From Verrucomicrobium sp. BvORR034 (GTDB taxonomy: Bacteria > Verrucomicrobiota > Verrucomicrobiia > Verrucomicrobiales > Verrucomicrobiaceae), in NCBI RefSeq assembly GCF_000739635.1, contig NZ_BATQ01000107.1, positions 1-46,388 on the forward strand: 46,388 nt of DNA, given 5' to 3'. The notes below the pieces were generated by a model. The model was not told the DNA's origin. It did not search any database and saw only the letters and a list, made by a program, of their open reading frames with translations. The translations under genes were made by a program, and so were the position numbers. Positions 2,273-46,388 of this stretch are shown piece by piece. Numbering within the stretch: the stretch's first letter is position 1; every line of letters begins with the position of its first letter.

Positions 2273-3100
2273 TCAAGTTTTACCCTCGCATGCGCCTCGC
2301 GGGACACTCCCTGGTTCATCGCCCTCGGATTGAGCCTGATCGCCCTGGCGAATCAGACGACGTGAAGCCCGCTCCCAGGCCAGATCCGCACGCAGTCCGG
2401 CAATGAAGCGGCCCATCCCCCGCCAGATGGCGCGGTAGAACTCTCTGTCGGTGGCCCCCATGCCAATTAATGCCCCGCGATGATTGACCCAAAGCACCGT
2501 GCCAGCTGCCAGACCACGCAAGCGAAACTGCAACTCCCAGAGCCAGCCATAGTGCCGTCGATGCCGGATCCCCTCACTCGTGAGCCTTGCCCGGTGGAAG
2601 GCAATGTGCCCCGCTTCATCGCGGTTGATCAAGTCGCACATGGCACGGATCGCCACGTCATCACAATGACGCCGCAGCAGCTTGTAGTACTGATGACTGA
2701 CAATCTCCGTCAGCAGCAAAGCATAGAGCTCAAACTGAACCCCCAGCCATTTCCTCAAACCACAGAACAGGGAGAAACTCCAGTGGGACTGAATCTCCGG
2801 TGCTCCCAACCGGCGCAGCGCACAACCGAGCAGTCGTGAATGCTCCTCTTCTTCCTTGAACCACAAATCTACCAGCACCTTGATGCTCCCGCTCCCGCTG
2901 AGCACCCCTGCCCGGTCCCGGGCAATCAGGTATGCGGGGCCACCACCATCCCCCAGCTGGAATTGCTGCAGGGACCGGACCAGCATCGCGAACTGGCGGG
3001 GTGAGAGCTGCTTACGCAAGGTACTCGGGCTCTCCCAAGCCGGTTCGGGGCGATAATTCTGGTTGTTGCGGAAGTGATTGATCCAGTGGCTGAAGTTCAT
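2273..3100 (-). CDS. Ferritin-like diiron-type protein
   Basis: 275 residues, long helices throughout. Two ExxH metal-binding motifs are visible: E84-H87 in an EEEEH run and E162-H165 in RDEAGH. E132 in the third helix (TEIVSHQYY) is a further candidate ligand. This is the four-helix-bundle ferritin-like arrangement used by diiron oxygenases and hydroxylases. The expected first-helix glutamate is not obvious; the equivalent region reads QQFQLGDGGG. The C-terminal ~90 residues contain a hydrophobic stretch near 195-215 and a basic tail. The ATG at 3100 follows an AGGAG ribosome-binding site about 6 bases upstream. The substrate is unknown, and neighbours give no pathway hint. A non-catalytic stress or iron-related role is also possible. 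Confidence 0.7.
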   Translation of the reverse strand: MNFSHWINHFRNNQNYRPEPAWESPSTLRKQLSPRQFAMLVRSLQQFQLGDGGGPAYLIARDRAGVLSGSGSIKVLVDLWFKEEEEHSRLLGCALRRLGAPEIQSHWSFSLFCGLRKWLGVQFELYALLLTEIVSHQYYKLLRRHCDDVAIRAMCDLINRDEAGHIAFHRARLTSEGIRHRRHYGWLWELQFRLRGLAAGTVLWVNHRGALIGMGATDREFYRAIWRGMGRFIAGLRADLAWERASRRLIRQGDQAQSEGDEPGSVPRGACEGKT

Positions 3101-3240
3101 CGTGGGCTCCTCTCAACAAGGTGGGGTTGCTGTCCTCGTGAACAGCCTCCCACTCCTGTGTGCAGGAACTTTGAAGGGACGATGAAATGACGGTGAATTC
3201 CCTGCGGAGGAATCCTCACTCCAAAGAAGCACCGGAAACG

Positions 3241-3723
3241 CTAGGGAGTCTGCGCGACCGCTCGCGCGCCCCGCAGACCGAGAGCCAACCCGAAGGAAAC
3301 GCTGGCTGCCAGCAGGCTGAGTATCCAGAAAGGTATCGACGGAATCTCAATCGGCGTAGTCATCCCCACCGCACCGCGGAACACATTCTTAAGGATGATC
3401 ATGGCAAAGAGGTGGTAAAACCCAGACACCGCCCAAAACCGCCGGACTTTGTTCGGGTAACCTGCTGGCCAGGTGATGCGGTAGTAGCCGAGGCATACCC
3501 AGAGCCCGGGCAATCCCACCGCGCCAGTGAACAGGATGAACCACAAAAACCTGCTCAGGTCCGCCTGGCCCTTGTCAGTGGCAAGAAAAGACTGGATGCC
3601 CACAAATGCCACGAAGAGCGCCAGGCCAACACTGGCAAGAAGGGTCAAGACAGAGGTGCAGAGCGTCCAGACACCCAAGGGGAGGGTTAACTTCAGCGGT
3701 GTGGGTTCGTTTGCATTCACCAT
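3241..3723 (-). CDS. Small multi-pass membrane protein, unknown function
   Basis: 160 residues with four hydrophobic segments (approximately 15-45, 60-80, 95-112, 128-150) separated by short polar loops, so an integral inner-membrane protein. The loop YPNKVRRFWAVSGFYHL is the most distinctive part. No family was recognised. It starts only six bases after the stop codon of the DUF7003-like gene upstream on the same strand, so the two are likely co-transcribed. Confidence 0.6.
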   Translation of the reverse strand: MVNANEPTPLKLTLPLGVWTLCTSVLTLLASVGLALFVAFVGIQSFLATDKGQADLSRFLWFILFTGAVGLPGLWVCLGYYRITWPAGYPNKVRRFWAVSGFYHLFAMIILKNVFRGAVGMTTPIEIPSIPFWILSLLAASVSFGLALGLRGARAVAQTP

Positions 3724-3729
3724 GATCTG

Positions 3730-4461
3730 CTAAAAGGTACCACTTCCGGGCCAGTTTTTCCAGTGCGTATTGGGTAGCTCCGTCGGGCCGTATTTTGTGA
3801 CATCGCCCGTTTCCAGTACGGCCGCAAGCTGCCGGAATGTCTCCGTGGAGCCTGCCGTCTCCCCACTGGAGAGATCCGGATGGTGCCATTCATCCAGCTT
3901 GAGCACCAGCTTCAATTCAGGAGGAAGGTTTACCACCAGTTCCTCCGGCGTGCAGAGCACGAGCTCGCGGCGGGTCGCTGCCAGATACCGGCACAGTTCA
4001 TACACTTGAATCCGATCTGGATCTGCCAGCTGTACCGCCGCCTCCTCATACTCGTGACGCGAAGGAAGGGGAACATAATTCCCACGAACCACCACCTCCC
4101 CGACGCCGGAGGCAACCTGTTCGCCATACTGCCAGCTGCCGCTTTCAAGGGGAAAGACAAAGCGCGTCTCGTCATGCGGATGGTTCGCCTGATGTTGATG
4201 CCAGGCGTGGTCATTGAAGAAGTCCTCCTGACCCGGTCGATTGATCAGCTTACTGCCAGAGGAGTACACTTGCACTTCCGGCTCACCCGAGCGGGGCGAG
4301 AACCCAAACACTTCGATGGTCATGGCCCAATCATTTTCGGAGCGATACAGAAACAACCTGCTCGCCGCCAGATGCAGATGGCCATTGCCCAAACTGGGAA
4401 AGCTGAACTTCCGGCAGCAGGCATCCCAGACTCCCAAGATCAGATCAGCAGTCCAAGTCAT
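3730..4461 (-). CDS. DUF7003-like protein
   Basis: 243 residues from the ATG at 4461, which is preceded directly by AGAAAGGGGG, a plausible ribosome-binding site. A start 63 bases further upstream (4524) is possible but adds a non-conserved-looking leader. The N-terminal half contains GNGHLHLAASRL followed by SENDWAMTIEVFGFSPR, the pattern I associate with the DUF7003 family; that assignment is from memory and not checked. The C-terminal half has a TPEELV segment and a short DEWHHPD motif. It is soluble and has no signal peptide. Function is unknown. It is the first gene of a minus-strand pair with the membrane protein at 3241-3723. Confidence 0.6.
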   Translation of the reverse strand: MTWTADLILGVWDACCRKFSFPSLGNGHLHLAASRLFLYRSENDWAMTIEVFGFSPRSGEPEVQVYSSGSKLINRPGQEDFFNDHAWHQHQANHPHDETRFVFPLESGSWQYGEQVASGVGEVVVRGNYVPLPSRHEYEEAAVQLADPDRIQVYELCRYLAATRRELVLCTPEELVVNLPPELKLVLKLDEWHHPDLSSGETAGSTETFRQLAAVLETGDVTKYGPTELPNTHWKNWPGSGTF

Positions 4462-43183: not shown

Positions 43184-43640
43184 AACATCTGCGTTTCACC
43201 ATTGCCCAGATCCGAGGTGCTGGCGGTCTTGGGTTCGTTGACATTCCCGCTCACCTCCACGCACTCCCCCACCGCACTGGCCTTGACCGCCTTCACGGCA
43301 CTCCGCTTTGAGTCCGTTTCCTTGAACTCGAATCCCGGAGGGGCCGGTGAGCTCAAAGGACTTGTCAAAACCGGGGCCGGACACACGCCTCACCTGGCCC
43401 TCGGCCTTGATCTCCAGCCCAACATTGCGACCGCCGACGGTGCCCGACATTCCGACAAGGCGGTCGATGACATACTGCCACTGGTCACTACCAATGAAGT
43501 GAAACATCACGAGGGGGGCGCCCAATGGAAAGGAATCACTTTACCTTGCGAGGACTCCCCTCAATAGTGAAGGGCACATAGCCAGACAAGTCACGCATCT
43601 AACCCGGTTCGTGAACAAGAGGCAGGTTGAAAAACACCGC
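43184..43640 (-). pseudogene. Probable decayed gene with frameshifts
   Basis: Protein-like strings appear in three different minus-strand frames in succession: GYVPFTIEGSPRKVK, then HFIGSDQWQYVIDRLVGMSG and EGQVRRVSGPGFDKSFELTG, then FEFKETDSKRSAVKAVKASA and ECVEVSGNVNEPKT. No single frame covers them. This looks like a gene carrying at least two frameshifts. The family was not recognised. An alternative is that these strings are chance. Confidence 0.4.
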
Positions 43641-43922
43641 TCACCCTCCCCCACTGTTGCCGGGAACGAACACTGGATGGTGGCGGAACCGTGTGTTTCT
43701 GCGTTCGGATGGTAAGGGAGCATGCCCATAAAGCCCCTGCTCACGAGACGCTTGTTTTGGAGCCCAATTTGTCGAAAGCAGCCTGCTGGCACGGCCTGCT
43801 ATGGGTTGTCAAGTTTTCGATCCCAAGTCCTATCGACCTGCCTTCGGTCCGTCCATTTACGATCAGCACCGCAAGATTGCCCAAAGCTGATAAACTGTCA
43901 ATCGATTGTCGAGCGCCTGCTT
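43641..43922. other. Intergenic stretch, nothing recognised
   Basis: About 280 bases downstream of the putative immunity gene; open frames on both strands are short and unconvincing. Confidence 0.35.
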
Positions 43923-44576
43923 TCACATCTCTACTCCGGCCTTTCGAAGAAGATCGAGTTCTGCCATCGACTTCTCGTAGTTGCGGCTCTCCTTCGATGG
44001 CATGCTAAAGATTCCTTCAGTTGCACCGTCGGCACTGACTTTTCTTGCCATCAAACGCCAATAGCTAAGTCCGCCGATACCGAGACTCTTCCAATCAACT
44101 GTATTCATTTTCCCAAGATCAATTTTCACGTGTAGCTGGGGATCTATTCTGACGCGTTTCACATCAATCCCAGTGATGCTCAACTCACCATTATATCCGC
44201 TGATATCCAAAGAACAGCCGCCTTTACAAGCATGCGTTGATCGAAGCAACTCTGCTTTCCCAGAGGGCCTTATCCAGAGCATCCTAGGGCTTTCTTTGCC
44301 TTGAATCGTGACATTTCGCATGGCAACCTCCGATGCGATATGCATGGCATCCCCACACTCGAAGTTTGTAAAAACCACCTCATCAAGAACTGAGCCTGCC
44401 TCGATGACACATGTCCCTGGTGTCACCCTACAACCTTCAAACTTGACGCCACGCATTAGGAATCTGCTGGCGCCTGGAGGACTCAAAGTAAAATCCGAGA
44501 AGACTTTGTTAGTAAATGTCTCATCCGTCAAAATCCGCCCTAATGAGTCAGGCTTAAACGTATCAATCAGTTCCAT
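43923..44576 (-). CDS. Possible immunity protein for the RHS toxin (beta-solenoid-like)
   Basis: 217 residues. The sequence from ~20 to 140 shows short repeated beta segments (FTNKVFSDFTL, MRGVKFEGCRV, LDEVVFTNFEC, MRNVTIQGKES, LDISGYNGELSITGIDV) that suggest a right-handed beta-helix or pentapeptide-like solenoid. No signal peptide. It starts 15 bases after the stop of the RHS gene on the same strand, the usual place for a cognate immunity gene. Its base composition is lower in GC than neighbouring genes. Immunity is inferred from position only. Confidence 0.6.
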   Translation of the reverse strand: MELIDTFKPDSLGRILTDETFTNKVFSDFTLSPPGASRFLMRGVKFEGCRVTPGTCVIEAGSVLDEVVFTNFECGDAMHIASEVAMRNVTIQGKESPRMLWIRPSGKAELLRSTHACKGGCSLDISGYNGELSITGIDVKRVRIDPQLHVKIDLGKMNTVDWKSLGIGGLSYWRLMARKVSADGATEGIFSMPSKESRNYEKSMAELDLLRKAGVEM

Positions 44577-44591
44577 AGTCTTTGGCTAGTT

Positions 44592-46388
44592 TCATTCAAG
44601 CCACTTAATAAATTTGTAGCCCAAATCACTCGGTATTGAATCGTAGGTGACTACCGCATCCACTGCGGCACGTCTTTGGTGGCTCCATATTGAACTCCAA
44701 CTTCCGCCCGTAATGTCAAACCCAAAACCACCCGGGCCAATAAAATCTTGCGGAGCGTTTGTTCGCCCAGTCCATCGAAGACCTGTCAAGACACTTTTAG
44801 GATCTCTTTTCACAATCTCAGCAACATTGCGAGCAACTCGAGTCTCCACTGCCGTTCCAAAGAATAGCTGCATGCGCCACGGTTCCTCTGCGATGCTAGC
44901 GATCTGTGATGGCGTAAGCTCACTCAACAACTTGTCGAAGTCGTTAACTAATTCATTTCTTGCTGACGTTGCAAGTCGTGCCAGTTCCCTTTGTTGGATC
45001 AGGGTGATGGGCATGGTTGACGTTTCTGCTACCCTGACAAACCGACCGGCGACGCCTCCGCCAAATCCACCAAAGGCAGTGGACATCAAGACCCTAGTCC
45101 CATCGCTCCTCCAAGACCCAGCGTAGGCATACCCTCCGAGACCTGCGCTCGCTCGGTCAACACCAATGTCGATGGTAGCAGCGGTAAAACCTTGCCCCAT
45201 ACCCACTAGCGCTCCACGACCGACTTTTGCAGGAATTGTAGCACCAGCCTGAATAAACTTGGTGCCAGTGCCCCATAGGAGCACATCTCGCCCTAAAAAG
45301 AGTGGCGCCGCCCACCATTTGCCATCCACCATGGATTCTCCCACCTGCCATCCGGGCAAAATCGAGAGCACATCGTTAGCGGTGGTGATTCCGTCCACCA
45401 CTTCCTCACCATGCAGTCCATCCACGATGTTCTGCGCACTTCCCAGGAATACCTGCTCGGCCCAGTATTGGGCCATTGGCCCCCCGCCCTTTGCCAGAAG
45501 AGATCGAAGATGAATCCCTTGATTTACCGGAATCCGGACCGTCTGCCGATGTACGTTGGGCGTCCAAGAAGGATTGTACATGCCTGACGCCACCGGTCCA
45601 GGCGTGCTCCATTCCCTCGCAATCTCCACGCTGGCTCTGAAAATGACTCCCACATTAGTAGGTACCGGATCGATTCGCAAACTACCCTTTACAACGTCCC
45701 ACATTCCCAAGTAATCCCGCCCATTCACCGGGTCATTCCCGCAATACCCGTACAAATTAAACCCACCGCTCTCCCCCAGCGGATCCCGACTGATCCATCG
45801 CCCAAGCTTGGCGCTGTAATACCTGAACCCAAAGTAGCTCAGACCCGTCTCCCCGTCGTAGAATTTGCTCTGGTAGCGGAATGGGCAGGCATCGACCTCA
45901 CCGCTCTCGGCGATGATTTCACCGAAGGGGGCGTAGTCGTACGTGGCGACGGTGTCGCCATTGCCTGCATGGATCAAGGCGGTGATGTTGCCCAGACCGT
46001 CATGGACGGGCAACAGGGTGCGCCCGCCTTCCTCCTGAATGGCCAGGAGACCGCCGATGCCGCCAGCACCGTCCCAGCTCCCGCTCACATCCTGTCCCCA
46101 GACAAACCAGCGACGGCTGGCGGTGCCGCTGTCCACGGATATCTCCTCGCACACCGGCAGCCAGTCCGACCAATAGAGCTTGCTGGTCTCCACCCTGTCG
46201 GGGGCATCCTCATAGGTCCGGGTCCGGGTCTTGAGCGTACGATGACCGTCCGCGTCGTAAACGAACGCGATAGTTTCTGAGGTGAGCTCTGGATCGGGGC
46301 TGGTGCCCGACTTGCGCTGCATCGACACCAGACGGCCCATGCCATTCCAGGTATAGTCCCAGAGGCTGTCCGCCTCCAGGCGTCCGGC
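44592..46388 (-). CDS. RHS-repeat protein with variable toxin-like C-terminus (5' end missing)
   Basis: 598 residues seen; the frame is open at the right edge, so the N-terminus lies outside. Residues before ~228 are the end of the RHS cage, with YDYAPFGEIIAESG, FRYQSKFYDGETGLSYFGFRYYS, the RWISRDPLGE junction and GNDPVNGRDYLG. The next ~370 residues (45704 to 44592) are the variable tip, with a transmembrane-like glycine-rich stretch and a C-terminal ~90-residue domain (ETRVARNVAEI, APQDFIGPGGFGFDIT, WSHQRR). This domain could be a PD-(D/E)XK-type nuclease toxin, but the third lysine is not obvious. The putative immunity gene follows. Confidence 0.82.
   Translation of the reverse strand, partial: AGRLEADSLWDYTWNGMGRLVSMQRKSGTSPDPELTSETIAFVYDADGHRTLKTRTRTYEDAPDRVETSKLYWSDWLPVCEEISVDSGTASRRWFVWGQDVSGSWDGAGGIGGLLAIQEEGGRTLLPVHDGLGNITALIHAGNGDTVATYDYAPFGEIIAESGEVDACPFRYQSKFYDGETGLSYFGFRYYSAKLGRWISRDPLGESGGFNLYGYCGNDPVNGRDYLGMWDVVKGSLRIDPVPTNVGVIFRASVEIAREWSTPGPVASGMYNPSWTPNVHRQTVRIPVNQGIHLRSLLAKGGGPMAQYWAEQVFLGSAQNIVDGLHGEEVVDGITTANDVLSILPGWQVGESMVDGKWWAAPLFLGRDVLLWGTGTKFIQAGATIPAKVGRGALVGMGQGFTAATIDIGVDRASAGLGGYAYAGSWRSDGTRVLMSTAFGGFGGGVAGRFVRVAETSTMPITLIQQRELARLATSARNELVNDFDKLLSELTPSQIASIAEEPWRMQLFFGTAVETRVARNVAEIVKRDPKSVLTGLRWTGRTNAPQDFIGPGGFGFDITGGSWSSIWSHQRRAAVDAVVTYDSIPSDLGYKFIKWLE

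Follow-up and report, generated by a model that had tools for sequence, protein, structure and literature searches.

A candidate RHS toxin module and its pentapeptide-like solenoid neighbour in Verrucomicrobium and distant bacteria

Which part of an RHS tip is the toxin, and what does the small gene directly behind it do? The question is raised by contig NZ_BATQ01000107.1 of Verrucomicrobium sp. BvORR034 (assembly GCF_000739635.1), which was analysed over its whole length of 46,388 nucleotides (positions 1-46,388, hereafter the window) and in which an RHS gene on the minus strand is followed by a gene for a 217-residue protein. In the handles used below, G stands for a genome, C for a contig and L for a locus; the window is contig C94 of genome G000, which comprises 8.58 Mb in 200 contigs. 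From sequence comparisons we propose, with a probability of roughly 0.8, that the RHS protein ends in a mobile antibacterial toxin module of ~140 residues, for which the 217-residue protein, a predicted beta-solenoid, is the cognate immunity protein. The RHS shell would carry the module to neighbouring cells, where it would be released to attack a target in the recipient; the producer and its kin would make the solenoid, which would bind the module and block it.

The RHS gene, its tip and the gene behind it

The RHS frame occupies 44592-46388 on the minus strand and is open at its 5' side to the contig end. A TIGR03696 match above the family cut-off (E 5.2e-24) identifies the 3' end of an RHS core at 45705..46388 (-), with the gene start lying off the contig. 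As the RHS protein has 13 matches in its own genome, itself included, the contig probably breaks at the repeated core. The core ends with the motif NGRDYLG at residue 228, and a tip of 370 residues extends beyond it, as a first-pass annotation made from the DNA letters had described; the C-terminal APQDFIGPGGFGFDIT block it had picked out is also present in the tip.

That annotation had treated the ~370 residues as one variable tip with a possible nuclease-type domain in it. The variable tip and its putative toxin module stand, but the module is much shorter, at ~140 residues. In a blastp comparison with seven related frames, residues 231-370 of the tip alone match the toxin gene of genome G830 (61% identity over 140 residues), so the mobile module is placed at 44595-45014 on the minus strand, and the whole tip was rejected as the toxin. 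The module has homologues and carries conserved E59, D92, D102-x-T104 and H114. The ~230 residues upstream (45015..45704, -) form a linker that is not common to the related toxin genes compared and is without a Pfam match. Base composition draws the same border: the guanine-plus-cytosine (GC) fraction drops from 0.62 for the core to 0.565 for the opening part of the tip, then to 0.486 over the last 142 residues and 0.478 in the 217-residue gene, compared to 0.586 for the window. A shift in composition after the core had been noted beforehand, and GC does drop there, but the sharp change comes at the last ~140 residues and not at the core end.

Behind the RHS stop, a gap of 15 bases (44577..44591, -) leads to the ATG at 44576 of the 217-residue gene (43923..44576, -), whose spacing and length agree with the earlier description. 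This gene encodes the immunity candidate, a pentapeptide-repeat-like beta-solenoid in prediction, with homologues beside the strong toxin matches in other genomes. Neither the tip nor the 217-residue protein matched any Pfam or NCBIfam family, and only weak sub-threshold lines were returned.

Module and solenoid gene in other genomes

A solenoid homologue lies directly downstream of the module at all nine loci with a strong toxin-module match, as a co-inherited immunity gene would. A strong locus is one with E <= 1.2e-6, with the window included and two E. coli records counted once; the nine are the window, two loci in G288, contig C30 of G755, G777, G654, G690 (a 33-residue tail), G830 and E. 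coli. The module is borne by an RHS core, by PT-HINT proteins and by an orphan cassette, with VgrG as a neighbour in E. coli. Module and solenoid gene are inherited together on these different carriers in far-apart bacteria, and their divergence is correlated. It is this adjacency across carriers that bears out the neighbour as an immunity candidate.

Adjacency to the module also bears on a different role for the solenoid, that of a loading or secretion accessory, like the pentapeptide-repeat proteins TvpB/TagB of some type VI clusters. Pentapeptide-repeat proteins do occur in type VI loci, where the available parts of two reports describe them as accessory or of unknown function (PMC13373197, PMC3942780). 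However, the solenoid tracks the module and not the carrier, being present behind RHS, PT-HINT and orphan modules; it is intact beside a broken module in CP036272.1, and the solenoids of G774 stand without any module. We regard an accessory role as very improbable.

The relatives were found in steps from both genes. In a scan of genome contigs, the last 142 residues of the tip had one relative, in CP036272.1 of Planctomycetes bacterium SV_7m_r (G288), at 66% identity. This module is an orphan with an internal stop codon, directly preceded by a Tox-MPTase4 frame (PF15640, E 6.6e-8, above cut-off) and directly followed at its 3' side by an intact 216-residue solenoid homologue, which is 36% identical over its length to the window protein. 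Used as single queries against 288 genomes of the window's phylum, the window proteins found their own genome only. Against 343 Planctomycetes genomes (G288-G630), which should not overlap with those 288, the single window tip gave one strong match, to the CP036272.1 genome (6.7e-58); four further matches at 0.003-0.01 (L017-L020), for which plus-strand frames were examined, were dropped as noise.

A two-row solenoid alignment searched against the same 343 genomes gave two matches, G288 and G469, the latter with a solenoid behind a ~30-residue remnant of the tip C-terminus and with a stop near the solenoid's own end. With three rows, the solenoid alignment matched four of 170 genomes in the order of G469, namely G469, G755 (two loci), G774 and G777. 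Upstream of the solenoids in G755:C30 and G777 are toxin genes that end with E...DF(I/V)G...FD(I/V)T...H; the G777 toxin protein has 1,883 residues and a PT-HINT domain (E 1.1e-26), and the G755 gene is cut at the contig end and has no Pfam domain. A four-row toxin profile (A4) then matched four of 170 genomes of the same order, of which G654 and G690 were new and absent from the solenoid search report, and both have a solenoid directly downstream. An eight-row toxin profile (A6) matched four of 188 genomes in the class of CP036272.1 and added G830 and the second G288 locus, each with a solenoid next to the toxin and, as in G777, a PT-HINT match above cut-off (1.7e-8 and 1.1e-15, respectively). 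At the G654 locus (L037), the toxin stop and solenoid start overlap by one base, and there are successive same-strand frames of similar sequence that appear HINT-like by eye.

Counted by query, toxin searches reached six of the eight strong loci outside the window (both G288 loci, G654, G690, G830 and E. coli), with the caveat that the profiles behind G654/G690 and G830/second G288 included rows (G755, G777) first met via the solenoid. Solenoid searches reached six loci outside the window, with a toxin at the first G288 locus, G755:C30 and G777 and a remnant at G469. At the remaining two, G755:C188, whose solenoid gene has a stop inside, and G774, with two copies in tandem, no tip was found in the 240 bases upstream of the solenoids. 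A solenoid gene can, in other words, occur next to a broken toxin or with no toxin at all. The tandem pair of G774 (L031, 6920-8384) lies at a contig end, after a gene that looks helicase-like by eye.

Profile comparisons link the scattered members of both families. When each sequence was scored with a profile built without it, all 13 solenoids gave E <= 2.6e-25 and all eight modules E <= 3.2e-19 (eight of 11 toxin rows were used, with three short pieces excluded), whereas the best of 200 shuffles per sequence was at least 0.94. Profile-profile comparison of the window-like and the distant subgroup gave 3.8e-12 for the toxin and 1.2e-15 for the solenoid, against 0.11 for a toxin versus solenoid control, with E-values computed for one comparison. 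The pairing goes beyond chance, because homologues lie side by side in other genomes and the leave-one-out scores are far above those of the shuffles. Across eight pairs, the toxin and solenoid identity matrices correlate with r 0.65; of 40,320 permutations of the labels, 108 attained this value. The correlation comes from few pairs and is in part due to the two subgroups.

Several observations weigh against the proposed pairing. Stops lie inside the solenoid genes at G469 and G755:C188, so the persistence of solenoids without a toxin is in part a matter of decay. When the window tip was compared with the seven related frames by plain blastp, G830 was the only match, and the link to the distant modules therefore rests on profiles. 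Searching 184 genomes of the window's phylum with A6 gave the window and two weak matches, in G126 (2.2e-4) and G075 (3.2e-4), which were dropped as both fall in unrelated genes and the frames examined on the matched strand contain no solenoid; we take the former frame to be PEP-CTERM-like and the latter signal-peptidase-like. In all, six weaker module matches, with E from 2e-4 to 0.01, were set aside. On plasmids, neither of the two window proteins (tip and solenoid) nor the G777 toxin found a match; the same was true of the G755 toxin and of the E. coli solenoid among phages, and of the window solenoid, the window tip, A4, the G777 toxin and the E. coli toxin among viral contigs. PADLOC returned nothing useful, with one match at 0.011.

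A version of the pair also occurs in E. coli. A tblastn search of plasmid records with the G654 toxin gave two E. coli records at 46% identity, and plasmid searches with the E. coli proteins returned the same two records only. In CP061270.1, the module forms the C-terminus of a 1,611-residue Rhs frame that lies behind VgrG and a DcrB-related gene; this frame matches Rhs_assc_core above cut-off and the NCBIfam PAAR model at 44.1 bits, below its cut-off of 124. The start of a 236-residue 'hypothetical protein', a member of the solenoid family, lies 22 bases past the Rhs stop. The other record has an interrupted Rhs frame. Like the window, then, this VgrG - DcrB-related - Rhs locus has a toxin-module homologue with a solenoid gene downstream; unlike the window, the carrier is a VgrG-linked Rhs protein, and the module and solenoid are 25% and 17% identical to the window's, respectively. 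A published survey of E. coli PAAR-Rhs tips may include the E. coli toxin.

A search of 5,426 complete E. coli genomes matched 159, of which 158 contain 80% or more of the pair. Among the matches listed (25 records), the solenoid gene is named 'hypothetical protein' in the 24 records with the whole pair. In two chromosomal regions that were examined, the pair sits between cusS and nrfB and is followed by an orphan zincin-type Rhs tip. Neither locus is annotated as complete: strain 13C1079T has an intact solenoid gene next to VgrG and Rhs genes that are marked as incomplete, and NZ_CP096587.1 (L054) retains the last part only of the solenoid gene, flanked on one side by a PAAR gene, itself marked as incomplete, and on the other by the orphan zincin tip. 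For size comparison, the immunity frames of E. coli EDL933, in the part of PMC7216683 available, are 129-609 bases long, shorter than the solenoid gene here.

Conserved residues of the module and fold of the solenoid

The conserved residues give a clue to what the module may do. Numbering follows the 142-residue piece 44595-45020 and family alignment A8, in which G55, E59, A63, D92 and F93 are invariant in all eight covering rows. The E59 codon lies at 44844..44846 and the D92 codon at 44745..44747, both on the minus strand. D102-x-T104 (44709..44717, -), within FD[IVL]T, is kept in nine of ten rows, the exception being the G469 tail, which starts past the motif and is misaligned. With E, (P/Q)D and FD-x-T following one another and the two aspartates ~10 residues apart, the pattern resembles, in our reading, a PD-(D/E)xK site in which the lysine has been replaced. 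Tox-REase toxins share with the module a conserved E, then a D and then a second acidic residue; they differ in having [DEQ]-x-K where the module has D-x-T, and their profile does not match it.

We lean, by a motif-level guess, towards the module being a nuclease. Its most likely activity would be that of a metal-dependent, distant PD-(D/E)xK-like nuclease that uses E59, D92 and D102, with threonine in place of lysine. As for the possible nuclease-type domain of the first-pass annotation, the E and D are kept, but D-x-T stands where (D/E)-x-K was expected and no nuclease family matches. The same facts tell against the nuclease reading. The lysine of the PD-(D/E)xK/Tox-REase motif is absent; H114 is kept in eight of nine rows and is K in one; neither the module nor the relatives scanned had a Pfam, NCBIfam or PDB sequence match, or a match to a REase-toxin profile; and the single-sequence model of the module, with a mean predicted local distance difference test score (pLDDT) of 44.3, is too poor to use.

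Each of these points would fit a true toxin-immunity pair whose toxin is not a nuclease, with the conserved E, D, D-x-T, H and Y serving some other chemistry. Such a toxin would account for the missing nuclease family match in all modules and toxin genes scanned, for the loss of the defining lysine and for the lack of a fold from the model. Against it stands the likeness in residue order and spacing to PD-(D/E)xK sites described above. We consider a non-nuclease toxin a serious possibility, held at somewhat less than even odds.

For the 217-residue protein, a fold can be proposed with better support. A 13-row family profile (A9) searched against PDB sequences matched AlbG (2xt4) at 8.8e-5 and 1.2e-4, QnrB1 at 0.026 and MfpA at 0.14, with the best match spanning ~60 positions. 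As AlbG is a pentapeptide-repeat protein, this match supports a beta-solenoid. A model built from three rows, examined for the right-handed quadrilateral beta-helix of pentapeptide-repeat proteins, has a mean pLDDT of 61.6, with block means of 65-92 and regular short strands over residues 1-100 and a mostly poor second half. Foldseek gave weak matches only with this model (best E 0.012, AlbG). VIA-align placed AhQnr (Z 10.3, 131 aligned residues, root-mean-square deviation 2.9) and AlbG (Z 9.7, 147, 4.6) at the top, closely followed by SV2 luminal solenoids; rows within 1 Z of each other were counted as tied. Pentapeptide_4 was matched by three of the 13 members (best E 1.7e-5), at 25.2, 19 and 18.5 bits against a cut-off of 38, and the window protein itself matched no Pfam family and no pentapeptide model above cut-off. 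Membership of the Pfam pentapeptide-repeat family is not claimed for this reason; a pentapeptide-like beta-solenoid outside the filed family is supported by the profile and the model, in line with the solenoid appearance noted beforehand.

This likeness brings in another way for the solenoid to confer protection. PMC7897471 presents the pentapeptide proteins McbG and AlbG as probable protectors of gyrase, each against the poison with which it is paired. The solenoid might similarly shield or rescue the toxin's target without binding the toxin, in the manner proposed for McbG, AlbG and Qnr with DNA gyrase. Its nearest solved relatives by profile are the three proteins of this kind named above, and AhQnr and AlbG lead the structural alignment. 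However, the best profile match may reflect the repeat fold alone, given its length, and the co-divergence of toxin and solenoid fits a mutual interface better than a conserved target. Target protection therefore appears unlikely, and an immunity protein that binds its toxin remains our preferred reading.

Cassette exchange and comparison with known systems

A repeat of ~220 bases (43598..43818, -) lies beyond the solenoid gene and is a possible 3' arm for cassette exchange. Six genomic copies were found, on C94, C52, C54 (two copies), C18 and C108, each downstream of an RHS core and in the same orientation. The sister cores at L002, L003 and L004 are 69, 65 and 80% identical to the window core, and their tips and downstream genes differ. 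The repeat-bearing contigs C52 and C54 have cores 65 and 80% identical to the window core with different tips, and C18 and C108 have cores of 37 and 43% identity. The C160 core is 69% identical, yet has no repeat copy. These patterns suggest that tip-plus-immunity cassettes may be swapped between the similar stretches that flank them, at any rate for C94, C52 and C54.

Other cassettes lie nearby. The sister RHS gene on C52 (L003) has a tip whose end is presumably HNH-like, followed by a 151-residue protein that looks SMI1/KNR4-like by eye. Above cut-off, Tox-MPTase4 was found in a neighbouring cassette in L013 and SMI1_KNR4 in L022, the G469 locus (2395-4195), where the latter belongs to a row of small genes behind the solenoid that looks like an orphan immunity set.

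No description of this pair, or of solenoid immunity to an Rhs toxin, was found in the searches made of the open-licence PMC literature. The terms 'pentapeptide', 'beta-helix', 'solenoid' and 'DxT' are absent from the first 300,000 of the 357,715 characters of PMC3482391, and the available part of PMC12419801 has pentapeptide repeats beside a Wnt-like domain, not presented as an immunity protein. The first-pass annotation had called a solenoid immunity protein unusual for an RHS toxin. This is fair, but repeat-protein immunity is itself known: in the part of the polymorphic-toxin catalogue available (Zhang et al. 2012, PMC3482391), RHS and PT-HINT toxins are covered and immunity by leucine-rich repeats, ankyrin or HEAT repeats is listed.

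A bolder reading would make the pentapeptide-like solenoid a dedicated immunity family, a nucleic-acid mimic that plugs a new class of nuclease toxins on RHS, PT-HINT and VgrG-linked Rhs carriers from Planctomycetes to E. coli. We find this rather doubtful. Were it true, a single DNA-mimic scaffold would serve both to protect gyrase, in McbG/AlbG, and to block toxins, and a toxin-blocking solenoid would test whether the pentapeptide DNA-mimic idea extends from gyrase protection to nuclease inhibition. The pair in any case adds a putative toxin module and immunity fold that Pfam and NCBIfam toxin or immunity models do not recognise, and with 158 of 5,426 complete E. coli genomes it reaches beyond obscure bacteria.

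AlbG, McbG, QnrB1 and MfpA share with the solenoid its beta-solenoid likeness, by profile and model, and a protective role against a toxic agent, proposed in the solenoid's case; they face a gyrase poison, whereas the putative partner here is a protein toxin. The polymorphic toxins, as far as the available part of PMC3482391 describes them, share with this pair a variable C-terminal module behind a conserved carrier, with an immunity gene next in line, as well as cassettes and immunity genes that stand as orphans; they differ in that no Pfam or NCBIfam toxin or immunity model matches the module or the solenoid found here. Overall, the pair fits a familiar type of system and brings to it a new putative toxin module and an uncommon predicted immunity fold; its members are spread over distantly related bacteria, among them Planctomycetes and E. 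coli.

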